From: Erysipelotrichaceae bacterium
GTDB lineage: Bacteria; Bacillota_I; Bacilli_A; Erysipelotrichales; Coprobacillaceae
DNA: 42,950 nt
Direction of reading: 5' to 3'
Assembly (NCBI GenBank): GCA_021201315.1
Contig: JAJQFG010000091.1
Span: 1-42,950, forward strand
The notes beneath the pieces are model-generated. The model did no database searches and was not told where the DNA came from. It worked only from the letters and a program-made list of their open reading frames with translations. Below, in pieces: positions 4,342 to 18,098 of this stretch. Made by a program: the position numbers and the translations under genes. Every line of letters begins with the position of its first letter. The first letter of the stretch is position 1.

Positions 4342-5612
4342 TCATTCCTTCATCGTGATAAGTAACGTAAATAATTCAGCAACTGGAAAAGCCAACCAAA
4401 CACCAGTAATACCAAATAACTTTGATAAAATAAATGCTAAAACAATAATAGCTATAATCCCTCTGCTTATTGATATGATAAATGATTTTCTAGGTTGATT
4501 AACAGCACTAAAATAGCTAGCTCTAATCATATTAACTGATGCAAATATATAACCTATAAAATTGATAATCAAACTACTATAAGCATAAACTTCTAACACT
4601 TGTGAACCTTCACTATTAAAAAAGGCAATCAATGGATTGGTAAATAAGATAACTATTAAAATAAGAATCACTGCTATAACAAAACCAATCAGCAAGGCAT
4701 GCTTTAATACTTTCTTTGTGCCATCAATATTACTTTGACCATACAATTCGCTAAGTAATGGCTGTTGGCCTTGAGAAATCCCATTAAACAACGAATTACC
4801 AACCAATGCATAATTAGCAATCACGCCATAAGCTGCTACTGCAATATTACCATCTAAACTTAATAAAATATAATTAAAAGCTGTTGTTGTAATACCACTT
4901 GCGATTTGATTGATAAAATAAGAAATACCAAGTTGACAAGCATGAATAAGATGCTTGAACGAAGGTAAAATCAATTGAAATTGAATTGTATTATTCTTAG
5001 ATAAAAAATGTATCATACAAACAAGCATACTAATAATAGGTGCAGTACCAGTAGCTAAAGCAGCTCCTTTCATACCCATATGCATAGGAAAAAAATATAA
5101 TCAAAAACAATATTATAAAAACTACTTGATAATGTGGCTATCATAGCCAATTTTGGTGCATAATCATTTCTAACAAAAGGTACTATCGTATTATTCAACA
5201 TAAAAAAGGGTGCACACAAAAGTACAATTTGTAGATAAGATGTACCAGTTTCAAGAATCTCATCATTACCACCCATGATTGTTAAAATCGTATCTGAATG
5301 AAACATACTTAATATAATAAAGAATATACTTAATAATAATTCCTATATAACAGCATGAGAAAACATTGTTTTAGACATATTTTCTTTAGTCTCTTTATTA
5401 ATAGAATAAATGGTCGCAAACCCCATACCAATCATAGCTCCAATCGCAAAAATCAAACTATAGAGTGGTAAAGCTAAATTTAAAGCAGTAATGCCATTAG
5501 TCCCTGCAGCAATTGATATAAAAAATGTATCAATGATGATATAACAGGACATACCAATAGTTGCGAATATATTTGGGATAATATATTGATGTAAGCGTTT
5601 CTCTAATGTCAT
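4342..5612 (-). pseudogene. MATE-family exporter, broken by an amber stop and a frameshift
   Basis: Remnant of a Na+ or H+ coupled multidrug/organic cation exporter with 12 predicted helices. The first piece (5612-5343, starting MTLEKRLHQYIIPNIFATIG) ends at an in-frame TAG at 5343-5345, and the same frame continues with ELLLSIFFIILSMFHS. A second lesion is at the T7 run (A7 on the plus strand, 5089-5095), where one missing base would join DYIFF to PMHMGMKGAALATG. With one base restored the whole is 424 codons, the normal MATE length. CAG to TAG is the simplest origin of the stop. Its ATG overlaps the preceding gene (ATGA). A second, intact MATE gene lies at 18566-19873. Confidence 0.8.
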
Positions 5613-7167: not shown

Positions 7168-7913
7168 ATGAATGATGTAGAAGTATTGAGTCAAATAGGA
7201 AAATCAAAATGTCAAATGATGAAAGATGATCCGTTACGTTTTTTACAAGGGCGATTTTAGCAGGATTATATTTAGGTATAGCTGCGATTATATCTTATAC
7301 ATTGGGTGCATTGTTTAGTGATAATACAGCGGTTTCTAAAGTTGTTGTTGCAGGTTCGTTTGGGATTGGTTTAGTTGCAATTATTTTTCTAGGAGCTGAA
7401 TTGTTTACAGGAAATTGTTATGTGACAATGATGCCAGTATTAAATGGTGAATTAAAAATTAGAAATATTGTACCAGCTTGGGTAGCTTGTTATGTTGGAA
7501 ATTGTTTAGGTATAGGATTGATATGTTGGTTGTTTATTTTGGGTGGTTCACAAACTAGTATTTTAAAGCCTTATCTGCAAAGTTTAATAGATGCCAAACT
7601 TAATTTTGATATGGTTCAATTAATTGTTAGAGGTATCTTATGTAATTTTATTGTATGTATTGCTGCTTATGCAGGCGTTAAAATAAAGGGAGATACAGCT
7701 AAATTAATTGTTATAATGGTGATGGTGATGGCTTTTGTTTTACCTGGCTTTGAACACTGTATTGCGAATGCAGGCATATTTACTATGGGTGTTAGTTTAT
7801 TAGGTAACTCTATAAATATAGCGATGATTCCTTTGCATATGTTATTATCTACAATTGGCAATATTATTGGTGGTACTTCTTTAGCGGTGTTACTTTATAT
7901 TGTGTTTAGATAA
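7168..7913 (+). pseudogene. formate/nitrite transporter family channel, frameshifted at T6
   Basis: FNT-family channels are pentameric and pass formate, nitrite or related anions. The frame from the ATG at 7168 (MNDVEVLSQIGKSKCQMMKD) runs to DPLRF and then goes out of frame at the six-T run 7239-7244. One extra T gives RFFTRAILAGLYLGIAAIISY and continues in the frame ending at 7913, total 249 codons. FNT hallmarks in the downstream part include GAELFTGNCYVTM, the cytosolic-to-membrane N-x3-C loop, and VLPGFEHCIANAGIFTMG. As written, initiation could only occur at internal TTG or ATG codons such as TTG 7302, giving a protein lacking the first helix. The lesion may be real or a homopolymer error. 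Confidence 0.8.
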
Positions 7914-8092: not shown

Positions 8093-8404
8093 TTGGATAA
8101 AGTTATTCATGATATTGTTCATGTAGATTTAGAATGTTCTAAACGTGTTGAAGAAGCACGTAAGAAGAAATTAGATGTTCAAAGTAATATGAATGCTAAG
8201 AAAAAAGAAATCTATGATTCTTTTATTGATGAATATCAATCAAAAATTGATGCTCAAAAAAAAGAATTAGAAACGCAAATTCAAGATACTAAAGCCAAAA
8301 ATGAAGAAGAATATAAAGAATCATTGAGTCAACTCTCTAGTCTTTACGAAACAAAAAAAGATGAGTGGGTTTCAATCATTGTTTCTCACTGTAAGGAAAT
8401 ATAG
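8093..8404 (+). CDS. ntpF: V-type ATPase subunit G/H-like peripheral stalk protein
   Basis: A 103-residue, highly charged protein that is almost entirely predicted coiled coil (KKLDVQSNMNAKKKEIYDSF, then repeated K/E/Q heptads). It matches in size, composition and position the small stalk subunit that pairs with subunit E in bacterial V/A-type ATPases. It starts at a TTG (8093) with an excellent AAGGAGGG seven bases upstream; an out-of-frame ATG at 8088 gives nothing. First gene of the operon. Confidence 0.75.
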   Translation: MDKVIHDIVHVDLECSKRVEEARKKKLDVQSNMNAKKKEIYDSFIDEYQSKIDAQKKELETQIQDTKAKNEEEYKESLSQLSSLYETKKDEWVSIIVSHCKEI

Positions 8405-8418
8405 AAAGAGGTGATTAT

Positions 8419-9456
8419 ATGGGCTCTTTTTCATCAAATGCTATTCTTGCTAAAGCACGCGCTATGTATAATCAAAGATTAACTTCGCAAGATTATGAAG
8501 AATTATTGAAGCGAAGAAATATCAATGATTTAGTGAACTATTTAAAAAGTGATAGTGCTTATAGCGATGTTTTATCACAATTAAAAGATGCTAATGTTCA
8601 TCGTGAACAATTGGAATCTTTATTAGATAAAGAAATATTTAATCGTTTGGTACGCTTATTAAGATATGCCAATAAAAAAGATTTACCTTTCTATACGTTA
8701 CAAATTAATGAAATAGAAGTACAGCTTATTCTAGCTAAAGCTAGATTAATTGAATCTGATTATTATAGTGGTTATGAATTAGATATTCCAGGTTATATTA
8801 ATCAATATGCTTCTTTTAACTTATATGGATTATTAACAGTTAATGATTATGATGGTTTATTACAATTATTAAAATCAACTTCTTATTATTCTGTTTTGAA
8901 AAAATTTGAGAAAAAGGATAATCAAAAAATTGATTTTAACATGATGGAAGTAGAATTGAAACGATTATATTATCAAAAATATTTTGCTTTAGTTAATGAA
9001 TTATTTAAGGGTAAAAAAAGAGATGATTTAATTACTATAATGAATACTTCTATAGAATTACAAAATATTACTAAAATATATCGTTTAAAGAAATACTTTA
9101 ATGCATCTGCTTCTCAAATTAAAGAAGTGTTATTTATGGAATACAGTCGCATTCCTAAGAAAACAATGAACGAACTCATTGAGGCTAAAGATGCTAGTGA
9201 ATTCTTGCAAAAACTAGCTACTTCTCCTTATAAGCTTTATGTAGATGATAATGAATTTGTATATATTGAATATTTTACAGGTAAAATTCAATATAATCTG
9301 GCAAAACGTTATATGCGTTTTTCTACGGATAGTGCATTAGTATTTATGACTTATAAACTAGTATTTCAAGTAGAAATTGATAACCTTAAACATATTATAG
9401 AAGGCTTAAGATACAATGAACCAGCAAATCAAATTGCTTCGATGTTGATATATTAG
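8419..9456 (+). CDS. ntpC: V-type ATPase subunit C (central-stalk cap, subunit d)
   Basis: Subunit C/d caps the membrane rotor ring and docks the central axle. The 345 residues show the all-helical three-fold repeated architecture and the family N-terminus (FSSNAILAKARAMYNQRL, typical of NtpC), and the C-terminal end ALVFMTYKLVFQVEIDNLKHIIEGLRYN. Length is normal. AAAGAGGTGATTAT precedes the ATG. It lies between the G-like subunit and two subunit I genes, whereas in the Enterococcus hirae operon C follows E, so the order is rearranged here. Confidence 0.88.
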   Translation: MGSFSSNAILAKARAMYNQRLTSQDYEELLKRRNINDLVNYLKSDSAYSDVLSQLKDANVHREQLESLLDKEIFNRLVRLLRYANKKDLPFYTLQINEIEVQLILAKARLIESDYYSGYELDIPGYINQYASFNLYGLLTVNDYDGLLQLLKSTSYYSVLKKFEKKDNQKIDFNMMEVELKRLYYQKYFALVNELFKGKKRDDLITIMNTSIELQNITKIYRLKKYFNASASQIKEVLFMEYSRIPKKTMNELIEAKDASEFLQKLATSPYKLYVDDNEFVYIEYFTGKIQYNLAKRYMRFSTDSALVFMTYKLVFQVEIDNLKHIIEGLRYNEPANQIASMLIY

Positions 9457-9466
9457 GAGGGGTGTT

Positions 9467-10978
9467 ATGGCAAAAGATGAGATGATATTAATGAATATGT
9501 CTTTTGATAGCCATCATTTAGATAAAGTATTAATGAAATTAATGGATGCAAAAAATTTTTATCCTCAAAAAGCTTCAAGTATTGTCTTTAATGAAGAAGT
9601 TGGTTTTTTGCAAGAGGATAGAAGTTATACTGATTTGTTAGTACGTATAAAACATATTGCTGATGATTTAAAGCTAGAATTAAATGAAGGCGAGCATGAC
9701 ATTAAGTTAGATATAAAAAAAGTAGAAGTTTCATTAAATGGATTAGAAAGAGAAATAAAGAAAATTATGGATATTTCTAGTCAACTCCAAAAAGAAAAAC
9801 ATGAGAATGAATTAACTTTAGGAATGCTTAAGCATTTGAATTCAAATGATATTAATTTTGATCAATTAAATCACTGTCAATATGTTACGATGAGATTAGG
9901 GTGTATTGATAAAAAGAATAAAGATCAATTTTCATATCTAGATAAATATCCAGTTGTCTTTTATGAATTAGGAAAAGATAATAATCTTATTTGGGGTTGT
10001 TATGTGGTTGTTAATAGTTATTTATTAGAGGTTGATAATTTCTTTAAATCTATAGGATTTGAAGAAATAGATATGCCTGATTTTGTTCATGGTGAAATCA
10101 GTGACGCTAAAAAAGAACTACAAAATGAAGTTGAAGCTATGCAATCATATATCTTAAACATGGATTTAAAGATGGATCAATTAAGAATAGCACATCAAGA
10201 TGAACTAATGAAAATATATGCTACTGCTTCTTATATAGCTAAAAAAGAAACATATAAAGATTATGTAGTTGATTTAAAGAATAAGTATAGTATTTATGGA
10301 TTTATATCTAAAGATAATATTAAGGATTTAAAAAATCATTTTAAAGGTATTGATTCTTTAGAATATCAAATATTACCTTCGGATACATTTGAACAACAAC
10401 AAATCTTTGCTCCTAATGTTGTAAACAATTCTAAATTTATAGAACCTTTTGAATTATTAAGTCATAAAAAACAAAAAATTGTTTATGCATATGCTTATCT
10501 TTATTATGGTGTATTTGCATTGTTTTTCGGAGATTTAGGAGTTGGATCTATATTAGCATTAATAGGATTTTTAAATAAAGGTAAGAAAAGCGGAAGGTTA
10601 CTTTTTGCTTTAGGAGTTGCTACAATATTAGGTGGATTTGTTTATGGTAGTGTATTTTATGTTATAAATTTATATCCAGCGATTATTGGTTTTAATATAT
10701 TGTTTAGAGTTATTGATGGTTTGGTTTTAATTGTAAGTGGAACAGTGGGTATTCGATTGTTGAAGGATAAATGGACAATGAATCAGTTATCTAAAAAAGG
10801 TATATTCACTATGATAATTATATATATTGTTTTAGTTTATTTATTAAGCTTGTTAGAGAATAGCATACAGTTACCATTTGTACCATTTGCTATTGTAATA
10901 GGAGCAATCCTAGGATTAATAGTTCAATTAATTCGAAATAAAAAAAGAAATAAGGAAGGAAAAAATGTATGGCAATAG
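9467..10978 (+). CDS. short V-type ATPase subunit I paralogue lacking the ion-channel half
   Basis: A 503-residue relative of subunit I (a), which forms the stator arm and the ion half-channels. The N-terminal cytoplasmic arm (about residues 1-340) aligns in pattern with the next gene: DFVHGEISDAKKELQNE versus DFVHGTPDDALQVLKEE. In the membrane part it keeps FFGDLGVGSILALIGFL and GGFVYGSVF, the counterparts of the first two helices, then has only about three further helices. It lacks the later segment that carries the essential arginines in normal subunit I (FLRVGGFILSHAG in the neighbour). The normal length is near 640. It therefore cannot replace the channel subunit on its own. AGGAGGGGTGTT precedes the ATG; its end overlaps the next gene by 10 bases. 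Confidence 0.75.
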   Translation: MAKDEMILMNMSFDSHHLDKVLMKLMDAKNFYPQKASSIVFNEEVGFLQEDRSYTDLLVRIKHIADDLKLELNEGEHDIKLDIKKVEVSLNGLEREIKKIMDISSQLQKEKHENELTLGMLKHLNSNDINFDQLNHCQYVTMRLGCIDKKNKDQFSYLDKYPVVFYELGKDNNLIWGCYVVVNSYLLEVDNFFKSIGFEEIDMPDFVHGEISDAKKELQNEVEAMQSYILNMDLKMDQLRIAHQDELMKIYATASYIAKKETYKDYVVDLKNKYSIYGFISKDNIKDLKNHFKGIDSLEYQILPSDTFEQQQIFAPNVVNNSKFIEPFELLSHKKQKIVYAYAYLYYGVFALFFGDLGVGSILALIGFLNKGKKSGRLLFALGVATILGGFVYGSVFYVINLYPAIIGFNILFRVIDGLVLIVSGTVGIRLLKDKWTMNQLSKKGIFTMIIIYIVLVYLLSLLENSIQLPFVPFAIVIGAILGLIVQLIRNKKRNKEGKNVWQ

Positions 10979-12887
10979 CAAAATTAAAGCTTTTGGAAAT
11001 AGAATTTCCAAGTACGCAATATGATGCTCTTTTATTAAAGCTCATTAATTTAGATGATTTTCATCCAGAATTGGCTTCTAAGTTTGCTGATTCTGTACAA
11101 GGTTTATCAGTTTTAAATAGAGAAAATCCTTATGCAGGATTGATCGATCATATTGAAGAAATAAGAGATAAATACCATTTAGATATCAAAAATAGTGATG
11201 TTGATAATGTTAGAATTAATATTATTCAAGCAGATACAGATTTTTGTAATATGGTAGAAGCAGTTAAGAAAAATGAAAATGTAAAAAAAGAGTTAGAAAA
11301 GATGATAGTAGAAAACGAAGCTGCTATTACTCAATTAGAGCATATGATTAATTCTGATATAGATTTCGATAGTATGCTTAATTGTAAATATTTAAAAGTT
11401 AGATTTGGACGTATTCCTACATCTAATCTAGAAAAAGTAGATTATTATAGTCAATATCCATTCTTATTTAAGATACTTCATAAAGGTAAAAAAGAGACTT
11501 ATTGTGGATATATAGTTACTTTAGATAAAGCTCCAGAAATCGATAATATCTTTTCTTCATTGTACTTCGAACAAATTGAAATACCTGATTTTGTTCATGG
11601 AACACCTGATGATGCACTTCAAGTATTAAAGGAAGAAAATGATACGGCCAGAAACTATATGAAGGTTTTAGACGAACGTACACAAGCTTTGTTTAATGAT
11701 AATTTACCAAGATTAAATGAAATTTATAGTATTTCTAAGAAACTAACTAAAACATATGATGCTCAAAAATATGTCGTTGTTTTTGGAGATACAGCTGCAG
11801 TTTACGGCTTTTGTGAAGAAAAGAAAGCAAATGAAATTAAAGCAGATTTTGAAAAAATGGATCATGTTCATGTAGAAATCAAGCCAGCTAATGGTGATTC
11901 ACGTTTAACACCACCTACAAAACTTACAAGTAATTGGTTTTCTGAACCATTTAGTATGTTTGTAGAAATGTATGGCGTACCAAGTTATACGGATTTTGAT
12001 CCAACAACATTAGTCGCTATTACATATACGTTCCTATTTGGAATGATGTATGGTGATATTGGACAAGGAATTGTATTAGCTATTGTTGGTTATATTGCTT
12101 ATAAGTGGAAGGGTATGCAACTTGGAGCAGTAGGTGTGAGATTATCAATAGCCTGTGTTATTTTTGGATGTGTATTTGGTTCAATATTTGGTAGCGAAGA
12201 CTTGTTTCAATTATTTGCGACGCCATTATTACTACCATTAGAATCAAGTAATACGATGACTTTGTTGATGATTGCAGTAGGTACTGGTGTTGCATTGATA
12301 TTAATCGCAATGATATTCAATATATATATCAATATTAAGAAAAAAATATGGGTGAAGCATTGTTTTCACAAAATGGTGTAGCAGGTATTGTTTTCTATGT
12401 ATCAGTATTATTGGTAGTTCTTGATATGATGATGGGCGTTAATATACCTTTTGTTGGATTACCATTCTATATTATTGGTATTGCTTTACCAGTTGTATTG
12501 ATGTTTTTAAAGGAAGCATTGGAACATAAAATGGAAGGTGATCCTATGTTTCCTGAAGGTTTTGGAGGTTATTTTGCAACATCATTCTTTGAATTATTTG
12601 ATATTGTTTTAACATTTATATCAAATACGATGTCATTTTTACGTGTGGGTGGTTTTATATTATCCCATGCTGGTATGATGCTTGTTGTTTATACACTGGC
12701 TGAAATGGTTGGTGGAGGCAGTATTAATATTGGCTATTTATTAGTTGTCATATTAGGAAATGTCTTTGTAATGGTACTAGAAGGTTTGGTTGTTGGAATT
12801 CAAGTTTTACGTCTTGAATTTTATGAAATGTTTTCACGTTATTATGAAGGAAAAGGTATTCCTTTTGTGTCAATAAAAGATAGATAA
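10969..12887 (+). pseudogene. ntpI: V-type ATPase subunit I (a), frame interrupted at an A7 run
   Basis: Full-length stator and ion-channel subunit. The first frame (10969-12381) holds the cytoplasmic arm and first helices (FGMMYGDIGQGIVLAIVGYI, FGCVFGSIFG). At seven A bases (12340-12346) reading must shift -1 to continue as MGEALFSQNGVAGIVFYVS, then FLRVGGFILSHAGM with the essential arginine and LRLEFYEMFSRYYEGKGIPF. With one base added the gene is 640 codons, the expected size. Without it the protein ends at 12381 and lacks the channel. Since the other operon genes are intact, slippage decoding or a sequencing error is at least as plausible as true loss. Overlaps the short paralogue. Confidence 0.8.
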
Positions 12888-12907: not shown

Positions 12908-13333
12908 ATGAATTTATTAATGTTATTTATTTTACCTGCAGTTGCTGTTGTATTATTATCATTACCTTTAGTCAAAGTATTTACTTCAAAAGTTTCTAAA
13001 AAGTCTGCTAAGATTCGTCTTACAACTCATATTTGTGGTTTCTTTGGAGCAGTTATATTAACATGTTGTTTTGCCATGAGTAGTGCTTATGCAGCTGATT
13101 CAGCTATTACTGGTACACTTGCTCAAGGGTTAGGTTTCTTGGCTGCGGCTTTGGTTACAAGTTGTTCTTGCTTAGGTGCTGGTTATGCTGTCGCATCTGC
13201 TGCTCCAGCAGCTATTGGTGCTTTCTCTGAAAATGACAATAACTTTGGTAAAGCATTGATTTTCGTAGCTTTAGGTGAAGGTGTTGCTATTTATGGTTTG
13301 TTGATTTCAATTTTGATTATCAACGCATTATAA
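12908..13333 (+). CDS. ntpK: V-type ATPase subunit K (rotor ring c subunit)
   Basis: Proteolipid that forms the ion-carrying rotor ring. The 141 residues contain four hydrophobic segments; the last carries the ion-binding glutamate in IFVALGEGVAIYGLL (E124). The GLGFLAAALVTSCSCLGAGYAV helix with its repeated small residues fits ring packing. Length is that of the single-hairpin type with an extra N-terminal pair, common in Bacillota. Whether it binds Na+ or H+ cannot be settled by eye. AGGAGG lies ahead of the ATG. Confidence 0.88.
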   Translation: MNLLMLFILPAVAVVLLSLPLVKVFTSKVSKKSAKIRLTTHICGFFGAVILTCCFAMSSAYAADSAITGTLAQGLGFLAAALVTSCSCLGAGYAVASAAPAAIGAFSENDNNFGKALIFVALGEGVAIYGLLISILIINAL

Positions 13334-13339
13334 TTTATT

Positions 13340-13648
13340 ATGAAATTCTTTTTAATCAGTGATAATGTCGATACATTAGTTGGCTTAAGATTGGTTGGTA
13401 TTGAGGGTGTTGTTGCACATGATCGTCAAACGTTTCTTGAAACACTTCAGGAAAAGATGCAAGATCCTTCCATTGCGATTATTCTTGTTACAACTCAACT
13501 TGTGAATATGTGTCCTGATATTATATCTGAAATTAAATTAAAACAACAAAAACCATTAATTACAGAAATACCTGATCGTCATGGAAACTCTAAGATTGGA
13601 GAAACGATTGATGGTTATGTATCTGAAGCTATTGGTGTGAAGTTATAG
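13340..13648 (+). CDS. ntpG: V-type ATPase subunit F
   Basis: A 102-residue protein with the CheY-like alpha/beta fold of subunit F, which sits on the central axle and helps regulate coupling. The pattern KFFLISDNVDTLVGLRLVGI, IAIILVTTQLVNM and KPLITEIPDRHG matches the family's D-x2-T-x2-F/L-R-L-x-G, ILITE and P-x-I-P motifs. Only six bases separate it from the K gene and there is no good ribosome site of its own, which suggests translational coupling. Confidence 0.85.
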   Translation: MKFFLISDNVDTLVGLRLVGIEGVVAHDRQTFLETLQEKMQDPSIAIILVTTQLVNMCPDIISEIKLKQQKPLITEIPDRHGNSKIGETIDGYVSEAIGVKL

Positions 13649-13658
13649 GAGAGATAGT

Positions 13659-14255
13659 ATGCAGAATATTGATCAAATATATCTCTATATGAAAGAAGAA
13701 ATTGAAAGACAAGCAGCAAATGAAGAAAATGCTATTTTAGAAGAAGTAAAAGCTCTAGAAGAAGAAGCATACAGTTCTATGAAAAAAGAAGCTGAAAGAG
13801 ATGCTGATTTAAAATTAAAACAAGAAGTAGAAGAAATGAGTTCTCAAGCTGCATCTGAAATTTCTGAAATTCATACAGATCGAACAAAGAAACTAATTAA
13901 AAAAAGAGACGAATATGTTAATAAAGTATTTAATGAAGCAAAAGAAGAACTTATAGAATTTAGTAAAAGTAATGAATATATGCCTTTTATGAAAGCAAAA
14001 ATTGAAAAGGTAGCTGATACTTTTAAAGATACGGATGCTATTTTATATATTAAAGAAGATGATTTATCTTTAAAAGATGAATTATTAAAAGCTTTAGGAT
14101 ATGATATAGAAGTAAAAGCATCTGATGATATAGAAATAGGTGGAATCATGATTGAAGATTTAAAGAATGCTTTGATTGTTGATGAAACTTTAGATTTTGC
14201 TTTAAAGAATCAAAAAGAATGGTTTAATAAGAATTCGGGATTAATTATTAGATAG
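13659..14255 (+). CDS. ntpE: V-type ATPase subunit E (peripheral stalk)
   Basis: A 198-residue stalk subunit with a long N-terminal charged helix (EEIERQAANEENAILEEV and on to about residue 110) and a compact C-terminal domain ending in GGIMIEDLKNALIVDETLDF, a conserved element of subunit E. It pairs with the small G-like subunit to form the peripheral stalk that holds the catalytic head. AGGAGAGATAGT precedes the ATG. Confidence 0.87.
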   Translation: MQNIDQIYLYMKEEIERQAANEENAILEEVKALEEEAYSSMKKEAERDADLKLKQEVEEMSSQAASEISEIHTDRTKKLIKKRDEYVNKVFNEAKEELIEFSKSNEYMPFMKAKIEKVADTFKDTDAILYIKEDDLSLKDELLKALGYDIEVKASDDIEIGGIMIEDLKNALIVDETLDFALKNQKEWFNKNSGLIIR

Positions 14256-14263
14256 GCGGTGAA

Positions 14264-16018
14264 ATGATGAATGAAAATTTAATTTATTCAGTTAATGGTC
14301 CCGTTGTTACTGTTAGAAATACACATGCTTTTTCAATGCTAGAAATGGTTTATGTAGGTAATGCTAAACTTATTGGTGAAGTTATATCCATGAATAAAGA
14401 TGAAACAACAATTCAGGTTTATGAAACAACAACTGGATTAAAACCAGGTGAACCAGTAGAAGGTACAGGACAGCCTATTTGTGTAACATTAGGTCCAGGT
14501 ATTTTAAGAAATATCTTTGATGGAATTGAAAGACCACTTGAAGATATAGTGAAACAATCAGGAGCTTTTATTCCTACTGGAAGTCATGTTGATCCATTGG
14601 ATAAAGAAAAATTGTGGGATGTGACAATTACTGTTAAAGTGGGTGATGAACTCAAAGGTGGCGATATTTATGCTACTTGTCCTGAAACAGATTTGATTGT
14701 TCATAAATGTATGGTTTCGCCAAATGTTTCTGGTAAAGTTGTAGAAGTTGCAGAAAATGGAAAATATACAATTGATGATGTTATTATCAAATTAGAAGAT
14801 GAAAAAGGAAATATCATTGATTGTACATTAACTCAAAAATGGCCAATTAAAACAGCTAGACCTGTTAAAAATAGATTACCAATTTCAATGCCTTTAGTTA
14901 CTGGACAAAGAGTTATTGATACATTGTTTCCGATTGCGAAAGGTGGGACAGCTGCGATTCCAGGAGGATTCGGTACAGGTAAAACAATGACTCAACATCA
15001 GTTAGCAAAATGGTGTGATGCTGATATTATTGTTTATGTTGGTTGTGGTGAACGTGGTAATGAAATGACACAGGTTTTGGAAGAGTTTAGAGAGTTGATT
15101 GACCCTAAGTCTAATAAACCTTTAACGGATAGAACGGTTTTGATAGCAAATACATCTAATATGCCTGTGGCTGCCAGAGAAGCCTCAATTTACACTGGTG
15201 TAACTTTAGCAGAATATTATCGTGACATGGGTTATCATGTGGCTATTATGGCTGATTCAACTTCTCGTTGGGCAGAAGCATTACGTGAAATTTCTGGACG
15301 TTTGGAAGAAATGCCAGCTGAGGAAGGATTCCCAGCTTATTTGCCATCTCGTTTGTCTCAATTCTATGAACGTGCTGGCTATATGAATAATTTGAATGAT
15401 ACTCAAGGTTCTGTCACTATTATTGGAGCAGTCTCTCCACAAGGTTCTGATTTTTCTGAACCTGTTACCCAAAATACGAAACGATTTGTTAGAACATTTT
15501 GGGCATTGGATAAATCCTTAGCATATGCCAGACATTACTTCGCAATTAACTGGAATGAAAGTTATAGTGAATATGTACCAGATTTAACGCGTTGGTACAA
15601 CAAGAATGTTGATCCAAAATTTATGCGTGATCGTCAACAATTACAAAGTATTTTAGCAGAAGAAAATAAATTGAATGAAATTGTTAAATTAATGGGATCT
15701 GATGTTTTACCAGATGATCAGAAGTTAACATTGGAAATCGCAAAGCTTATTAGAGTTGGTTATCTCCAACAAAATGCTTTCCATAAAGATGATACTTTTG
15801 TCCCATTAGAAAAACAATTAAAGATGATGGAAGTTATCTTATATATGAATAAACGTGGTCAAGAATATGTGAATGCTAATAAACCTATTCGTTTATTAGT
15901 AGAAACAGGTATTTTTGATAGTATTGTAAAGATGAAATATGATGTACCAAATAATCAATTAGAATTATTTGATCATTATTATACAGATATAGATGAAGCT
16001 ATTGCATCAATCGCTTAA
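14264..16018 (+). CDS. ntpA: V-type ATPase catalytic subunit A
   Basis: Catalytic subunit that couples ATP hydrolysis or synthesis to rotation. The 584 residues include the P-loop GGFGTGKT at 234-241, the family-specific non-homologous region near residues 110-190, and later motifs [37 protein letters not shown] and the [12 protein letters not shown] segment. Length is normal. ATGATG at the start follows GGCGGTGAA; either methionine could be used. All catalytic residues seem intact. Confidence 0.95.
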
Positions 16019-16030
16019 GGAGGAAAAACT

Positions 16031-17473
16031 ATGAGTCTTCAATATAAAGGATTGAATGAAATTAACGGATCATTAGTCGTATTAGATCATGTTAAGGATG
16101 CTTCATACGATGAAATGGTAGAAATACAAGTTAATGATGGTACAACACGTTTAGGACGTGTTGTCCAGCTTGAAGGTGAAAAAGTTGTTGTACAGGTTTT
16201 TGAAGGAACGAATGGTTTATCATTAGCCAATACAAAGACAAGATTATTAGGTCGTCCTATGGAATTACCAGTTTCTAAGGAAATGTTAGGAAGAGTATTT
16301 TCAGGAGCTGGAAAACCTATTGATGGATTAGGTGATATTTATGCTGAAAAATCTATGGATATTAATGGTCAACCATTAAATCCTGTGTCTCGTGTTTATC
16401 CACGTAACTATATTAACACAGGTATTTCATCTATAGATTGTTTGACAACACTTATTCGTGGACAAAAGTTACCAATCTTCTCAGGATCAGGTTTACCTCA
16501 TAATCAATTAGCAGTACAAATTGTTAAGCAAGCTAAGGTTAATGATGGTAGTCCATTTGCAGTTGTGTTTGCAGCAATGGGTGTTACGAATGATGTTGCT
16601 GAGTATTTTAGAAGATCTTTTGAAGAAGCAGGTGTTATGGAACGTGTTGTAATGTTCTTGAATTTATCTAATGATCCAATCATTGAAAGAACATTAACAC
16701 CAAGATGTGCTTTAACAGCTGCAGAATATTTGGCATTTGAATGTGATATGCATGTATTGGTTGTATATACTGATGTCACAAGTTATTGTGAAGCTTTACG
16801 TGAATATTCATCAAGTAAAGGTGAAATTCCAGGACGTAAAGGTTATCCAGGATATTTGTATTCTGATTTGGCATCACTTTATGAACGTGCAGGTATCTCT
16901 AAATATGCTAAAGGTTCAGTAACACAAATACCAATTTTAACCATGCCAAATAATGATATTACCCATCCGGTACCTGACTTAACAGGTTATATTACGGAAG
17001 GTCAAATCACTTTAGATGCAGAATTAAATAGTATGGGTATTCAACCACCAGTATCAGTTTTACCTTCACTTTCACGTTTAATGAAAGATGGTATTGGTGA
17101 AGGTTTTACTAGAGCGGATCATCAAGATGTGGCTAACCAATTATTTGCATGTTATGCACATGTTCAAGATGTTAAATCTTTAACTTCAGTTATTGGTGAA
17201 GACGAATTATCACAAACAGATAAGAAATATATGGAATTTGGACGTTTATTTGAGGAACATTTCTTAAATCAAGGCTTTGATACTAACCGATCTATTGAAG
17301 AAACATTAGATTTAGGATGGGCACTACTTTCAGTATTGCCAAAGAATGAATTAGATCGTGTTGATAATGCTGTACTTGATAAGTTCTATGATCATAACAA
17401 AGCTGTAGAACAGTTTAACTTGAACGAAGATACAATTATTAAAGAACTACAACAGGCGGTCAACAATGGCTAA
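16031..17473 (+). CDS. ntpB: V-type ATPase subunit B (non-catalytic nucleotide subunit)
   Basis: Alternates with subunit A in the hexameric head. The 480-residue sequence has the expected degenerate nucleotide loop [12 protein letters not shown] rather than a P-loop, and conserved segments [41 protein letters not shown] and [40 protein letters not shown] precedes the ATG. Its end overlaps the D gene by 8 bases, suggesting coupled translation. Confidence 0.95.
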
Positions 17474-18098
17474 TCAAGTATTCCCAACCAAAGGAAACCT
17501 CATGGCTCAAAAGAAATCTTTGGAACTTGCTTATTTGGGCTATGATTTAATGGATAAAAAAAGAAATGTTCTTATCAAAGAAATGATGGATCTACTTGAT
17601 GATGTAAAAGAAATCAGAGATGAAATTACAGTTTCTTATGAAAGAGCCTATTATGCGCTTCAAGAAGCTAATGTCTCTATGGGTATTATCAATGATATTG
17701 CTGATGCAATACCTATTGATGAAGGTATTAGTGTCACTTATCGTACTGTTATGGGTGTAGAAATACCAAAGGTTACTTATGAAAAAACACCTATACGCTA
17801 TGGCTATGGCTTTGAACATGCCAATTCAAAAGTCGATTATGCTTATCAATGTTTTTATCGTGTTAAGGAATTAACAGTTAAACTAGCAGAAATCGAAAAC
17901 GCAGTCTATCGTTTAGCAAACGCTATACGTAAAACCCAAAAACGTGCTAATGCTCTAGAAAATGTTTCAATTCCTGAATTTGAAAAAAACATCAAATTCA
18001 TCAATGAAACATTAGAAGAAAGAGAACGTGAAGAATTCACACGTCAAAAAGTCATCAAAGCACAAAAAGAAAAACAAAAGCAAAAAGAGAATCAGTGA
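17466..18098 (+). CDS. ntpD: V-type ATPase subunit D (central axle)
   Basis: The rotating axle that joins head and ring. The 210 residues are mainly two long helices with the family N-terminus [30 protein letters not shown] and the C-terminal [20 protein letters not shown]. The tail ends in a Lys/Gln/Glu run. Its stop codon lies in the loop of the operon terminator. Last gene of the operon. Confidence 0.92.

Follow-up and report, generated by a model that had tools for sequence, protein, structure and literature searches.

Tandem subunit I genes in the V-type ATPase operon of Coprobacillaceae-like bacteria: a channel-free paralog as a possible second stator arm

The V-type ATPase operon of a Coprobacillaceae-like bacterium encodes, immediately ahead of subunit I, a short protein that we class as a derived stator-arm paralog without a channel, since it shares homology with subunit I but not the features by which a functional subunit I is recognized. 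That the short gene is used and that its product is unable to be an ion channel are both well supported, by the history of its duplication, its distribution, its dN/dS values and the absence of the channel helices. We tentatively propose, at a probability of about 0.45, that the short protein serves the V-type ATPase as a second stator arm that does not conduct ions, and that it perhaps holds a third E/G stalk in place.

Results

The sequence analysed (hereafter the window) comprises 42,950 nucleotides of contig JAJQFG010000091.1 from assembly GCA_021201315.1. Its open reading frames and profile matches give a V-type ATPase operon with the gene order G-C-short I-I-K-F-E-A-B-D (Table 1), in which the short gene sits between subunits C and I. 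An earlier note on this DNA, made from the sequence alone, had regarded this gene as intact and lying in the middle of the operon, and it is indeed a single open frame of 503 codons. The overlap of its end with the start of subunit I suggests coupled translation of the two. An a subunit of an F-type ATP synthase is also encoded in this genome. In subunit K the Pfam c-subunit match is confined to the second half of the protein (residues 78-137), and the first half resembles an additional hairpin that is not recognized by the profile.

Table 1. Features of the V-type ATPase operon in the window
Feature	Coordinates	Strand	Basis
V-ATPase subunit G/H-like stalk gene	8093..8404	+	weak NCBIfam matches; operon position; orthologs of 100-125 aa
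V-ATPase subunit C (d-type, AC39)	8419..9456	+	profile match
Purine-rich ribosome-binding-like stretch ttaggaggggtgtt, with GGAGG-like bases, before the ATG of the short gene	9451..9466	+	by eye
Short subunit I paralog, 503 aa	9467..10978	+	intact ORF; ortholog pairs; dN/dS; structure model matching subunit I/a
Distal lobe of the arm, residues 131-210 of the short protein	9857..10096	+	model; most alike region between short and long copies
Membrane part, residues 336-498, five hydrophobic segments	10472..10960	+	hydropathy; helices in model
Overlap of short gene stop and subunit I start, 10 bases	10969..10978	+	ORF coordinates
Subunit I, first fragment, 470 aa: arm and membrane helices 1-3	10969..12381	+	ORF; profile matches
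Run of seven A where the subunit I frame breaks (one-base frameshift)	12340..12346	+	comparison with relatives
Subunit I, second fragment, 179 aa: rest of channel, arginines at 12642-12644 and 12810-12812	12348..12887	+	ORF; profile match; alignment
V-ATPase subunit K (c ring)	12908..13333	+	profile match
V-ATPase subunit F	13340..13648	+	profile match
V-ATPase subunit E	13659..14255	+	profile match; sole E gene found in genome
V-ATPase subunit A	14264..16018	+	profile match
V-ATPase subunit B	16031..17473	+	position, length, orthologs
V-ATPase subunit D	17466..18098	+	position, length, orthologs

Structure of the short protein

The AlphaFold model of the short protein (mean pLDDT 79.9, 17 sequences; low confidence beyond about residue 437) contains a two-lobed arm with a coiled coil. 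The best Foldseek match was Thermus subunit I (E 2.4e-17), the subunits I/a of yeast and mammals were matched as well, and VIA-align of the model against subunit I/a gave a Z of 17.6 over 452 residues with an rmsd of 11.7. The proximal lobe is formed by residues of about 1-52 and 267-320 and the coiled coil by 83-126 and 211-266, with helices from residue 336 onward.

The predicted fold, matching subunit I/a of solved V-ATPases, bears out the earlier description of a 503-residue relative with the stator arm, but the two membrane helices allotted to it there were too few. By hydropathy the window copy has five predicted segments and most of its orthologs have five or three, as against eight in long I; the arm-only paralogs of other lineages, considered below, have none. 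When compared with the eight-helix membrane domain of subunit I/a, the short protein is missing helices 6-8, and in two ortholog groups helices 4-5 are missing too. The conserved arginines of subunit I have a role in ion transport. Both arginines listed in Table 1 align with those of E. hirae subunit I, and both columns are gaps in the short proteins; the note was right that the arginine-bearing helices are lacking, as the short protein does not extend to the region of subunit I in which they lie.

Identity between the short protein and its own long copy is unevenly distributed: 42% in the distal lobe, 26% in the proximal lobe, 22% in the coiled coil, 31% in helices 1-2 and only 16% in helices 3-5, the least alike region. 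Most of the arm residues that the two copies have in common lie in the distal lobe (R143, G145, D190, N191, F193, F198, P204, H208 and G209), and other shared residues are found in the proximal lobe and in the helix 1 motif GDxGxG; the loop EMYG-x-P-x-Y ahead of that helix is lost in the short protein. The Pfam family PF01496 did not match the window's short copy even at E 1, and matched 3 of 17 short orthologs at E up to 1.

Frameshift in the downstream subunit I

The downstream partner had been taken to be full-length, but in the window subunit I is split by a one-base frameshift, and this genome has no further copy of it. In three relatives of the same genus the frame is open through the site of the A run and encodes 639 aa. 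Two neighbouring genes are also broken, which makes three within about 8 kb: a MATE-like transporter gene (4342-5612, minus strand) has an in-frame stop and a frameshift, and a formate/nitrite-transporter (FNT)-like gene (about 7190-7913, plus strand) has its start in another frame, near a T run. Homopolymer sequencing errors are suggested as a plausible origin of all three breaks alike. With the relatives unbroken at this site and two nearby genes damaged as well, a sequencing error in subunit I is probable, and either such an error or a private lesion is probably a better explanation than programmed frameshifting. Programmed -1 frameshifting was considered and judged less likely: GAAAAAAA does not have the X XXY YYZ form of a standard slippery site, the relatives are open without any frameshift and the two nearby genes are broken too. 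Transcriptional slippage at the A run is a conceivable alternative. Private frameshifts like that of the window are also present in the long I of another genome (G042, L068, 7989-9880) and in the short I of a third (G034, L039, 8215-9740).

Origin, distribution and selection

In a tree of 85 cytoplasmic domains, which included 22 short and 26 long proteins of the Coprobacillaceae-like family, the 22 short proteins fell together in a single clade (100/100). Its sister group comprised the family's 26 long proteins (98/94), among which the main subdivisions of the short clade could be seen again. A single ancestral duplication at the base of the family, followed by losses, explains this pattern.

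Our sample of the family was 43 genomes, the window's own included, 42 of which carry a full-length I. The short gene was found in 37 of the 42 genomes having a V-type ATPase, in at least 14 genera. Contig matches gave the names Ca. Stoquefichus, Longibaculum, Massilimicrobiota, Thomasclavelia, Kandleria, Sharpea, Eggerthia and Faecalibacillus, on which our family label Coprobacillaceae is based. In 34 of these 37 genomes, operons and match coordinates show it next to full-length I on the upstream side. In the other three, which belong to two genera of Sharpea and Eggerthia type (L059, L044 and L046), it is unlinked from the operon and occupies a shared site beside genes that by eye are aroB-like, RsmF-like and NlpC/P60-like, and it is still conserved. 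No genome was seen with the short gene and without the ATPase. The gene is absent from four family genomes of 92-100% completeness (G009, G012, G014 and G016), and therefore the pump can work without it. Within the same family, CHKCI006 (G011; L113/L058, 1777-2724) has a 315-aa arm-only paralog on a very long branch, which we describe as replacing or remodelling the membrane-bound short form. In the other family of the order, Erysipelotrichaceae-like bacteria (272 genomes), no short form was among the matches listed, which were ORFs of about 600 residues or more, and the viral contigs searched held no relative of the short protein.

Selection was estimated by the Nei-Gojobori method in eight comparisons of the short gene, all of which gave dN/dS values of 0.08-0.18; synonymous divergence is high in some pairs, so that the values are approximate. 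Against two relatives of the same genus the window's gene gave 0.18 and 0.18, those two gave 0.14 between them, and five pairs of other genera gave 0.08-0.15, with 0.08 for the unlinked Sharpea-type pair. For comparison, the values were 0.03-0.09 for long I, 0.09-0.28 for E and 0.03-0.04 for A. Constraint on the short protein is therefore similar to that on E and about half as tight as that on long I, and the short protein evolves about twice as fast as long I.

These results cover both of the observations that the earlier note had named as evidence against its reading, absence of the short gene from related genomes and loss of constraint: close relatives carry the gene, and it is under purifying selection. 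The expectation that it is probably used has gained accordingly from an ancient single duplication, retention in most family genomes and low dN/dS. Readings of the gene as a pseudogene or an artefact are ruled out by dN/dS and distribution. A decaying, functionless duplicate, to which faster evolution than long I, the four genomes without the gene and one frameshifted copy (in G034, maybe a sequencing error) might have pointed, is already contradicted by the selection data and scarcely credible for a gene kept since the origin of the family and persisting after it left the operon.

Arm-only paralogs in other lineages

A gene-neighbourhood scan detected arm-only subunit I paralogs of 315-335 aa, with no membrane segment, in V-ATPase operons elsewhere. 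They lie between G and C in Acholeplasmatales-like bacteria (L125, L143 and L160), between C and I in four Izemoplasma-like ones (L137, L138, L145 and L154) and upstream of I in a further one (L152). The CHKCI006 paralog (L113) came from the same scan; the eight of the other lineages measure 320-335 aa. A further six genomes, including one assembled as a single contig (G472), came from whole-genome searches. In the tree the arm-only paralogs group with the long proteins of their own lineages, apart from the short clade of the Coprobacillaceae. Their positions require at least four label changes and fit at least three separate origins. The arm-only forms are 60% identical to each other in the distal lobe. 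The channel half has thus been discarded repeatedly and the arm, the distal lobe above all, retained. The arm is what selection keeps, because short orthologs shrink to five or three helices and arm-only paralogs recur.

Discussion

Of the three roles that the earlier note had offered for the short protein, second stalk anchor, assembly factor and competitor for the peripheral stalk, the first fits best because the arm survives, the distal lobe above all, and because arm-only versions recur elsewhere; the other two are a serious rival. In the Thermus enzyme the lobes of the subunit I arm hold the E/G peripheral stalks, as published. A-type and bacterial V/A-type enzymes have two such stalks; eukaryotic V-ATPases possess a third as well, and it is subunit C that holds it (PMC6131620). 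The fold of subunit C is reported to resemble the arm of subunit a remarkably closely (PMC3899036). Subunit I was duplicated once in the family ancestor, and the copy shed its channel half and retained the two-lobed arm. In the mechanism that we favour, the short protein would lie beside Vo, tethered by its own helices, with its lobes binding an E/G stalk, and would form an additional part of the collar that braces the motor; like eukaryotic subunit C, it might be the anchor of a third E/G stalk.

Our observations bear on this proposal in both directions. The wide retention of the gene, its single clade and its low dN/dS favour it; the four family genomes without the gene and the faster evolution of the short protein than of long I count against it. 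Foldseek matched eukaryotic subunit C to the short model at E 1.3e-7, with low TM-scores (0.16-0.25). That the likeness to subunit C might be peculiar to the short form was considered and rejected: the long-I control matched subunit C too (E 1.6e-6), and therefore the likeness belongs to the arm in general. The genome has only one E gene, which counts against the anchoring of a third stalk. We also examined rate covariation, as residual divergence after regressing out A and B, in seven tests on 20 taxa. The residual divergence of the short protein tracked that of long I (r 0.35, 4/2000 permutations) and of F (r 0.31, 10/2000 permutations), and in these 20 taxa it did not track E (r 0.03), nor clearly G (r 0.15). 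The covariation with long I favours the proposal, and the absent covariation with E counts against a direct stalk partner.

The strongest rival, which we consider possible at odds of about one in three, is an assembly or regulatory factor. The short protein would bind EG stalks or the ring-borne d-type subunit C only while V1 and Vo were separated; it would keep parts in readiness or prevent pumping that is premature or leaky, and would leave the finished enzyme. The arm of isolated Thermus Vo halts the rotor by locking onto subunit d (PMC7367684), and a loose arm could act in trans. A gene that can be lost, can sit outside the operon and evolves faster would suit such a factor, which explains the dispensability and the unlinked copies as well as a second stator arm does. 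However, in most genomes the short gene overlaps or lies close to long I, which suggests matched amounts of the two products, and a soluble competitor would not need several membrane helices next to I.

The covariation with long I could also be read as a sign that the short protein associates through its helices with the channel subunit in Vo, which might help the enzyme to dimerise or to take up its position, the arm being secondary. Helices 1-2, which retain the GDxGxG and GxxxG-type residues common to long I, agree with such a membrane partner. Helices 4-5 are dispensed with in two ortholog groups, though, helices 3-5 are the region least alike between the copies and the arm-only paralogs elsewhere have no helices, and we regard the explanation as improbable. 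Still less likely is a bifunctional or moonlighting protein acting outside the ATPase, such as a membrane-linked scaffold; the gene does stand alone in the Sharpea- and Eggerthia-type genomes, but its usual place in the operon, its homology to subunit I and its occurrence together with the ATPase in every genome in which it was seen all speak against such a role.

Implications

The proposal of a second stator arm has a wider form, which we think unlikely at present: that in some bacterial V-type ATPases a second stator arm anchoring a third peripheral stalk evolved several times through channel-less duplicates of subunit I, repeating, in recent steps that can be traced, a possible route to eukaryotic subunit C. 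Rotary ATPases are classed by stalk number, with one in F-, two in A- and three in eukaryotic V-type enzymes (PMC6131620), and subunit C has been described as without homologs in A- and F-type enzymes. If a bacterial enzyme does have a second arm that lacks the channel, it would blur this division and provide a testable model for the building of the eukaryotic collar. It may also bear on the position of the rotor: in E. hirae, with two asymmetric stalks and a large ring, the rotor is off axis, and three stalks are proposed to keep the yeast rotor on axis (PMC6199243). Pfam does not recognize most copies of the short protein, which makes genes of this kind easy to miss, and our literature search among open-licence papers found no relevant description of truncated or tandem subunit I.

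Comparison with known systems

The closest known relative of the short protein is subunit I/a of the bacterial and archaeal V/A-type ATPases (NtpI; PF01496; PDB 6r0z_N, 8wci_P and 3rrk), to which it is homologous in sequence and predicted fold, sharing the two-lobed arm, the long coiled coil and the first membrane helices and, in 34 of 37 genomes, encoded like it in the ATPase operon. In contrast to subunit I/a, it has no helices 6-8, no channel and neither arginine, its pre-membrane loop has diverged and the window copy is below Pfam recognition. The arm-only paralogs of Acholeplasmatales- and Izemoplasma-like bacteria likewise represent an extra truncated subunit I gene in a V-ATPase operon with the distal lobe kept; they differ in having no membrane helices, in their independent origins and, in one group, in gene order. 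Eukaryotic subunit C (Vma5), the anchor of the third EG stalk, is likewise a separate polypeptide; its two lobes are joined by a coiled coil, with a fold like the arm of subunit a (PMC3899036), and the Foldseek matches of low TM-score suggest a possible likeness of the short protein to it. However, subunit C is soluble and unique to eukaryotes, whereas the short protein has five hydrophobic segments, a clear and recent origin from subunit I and a putative ability to bind stalks. The solubility of Vma5, with no membrane helix, is matched only by the arm-only paralogs of the other lineages.
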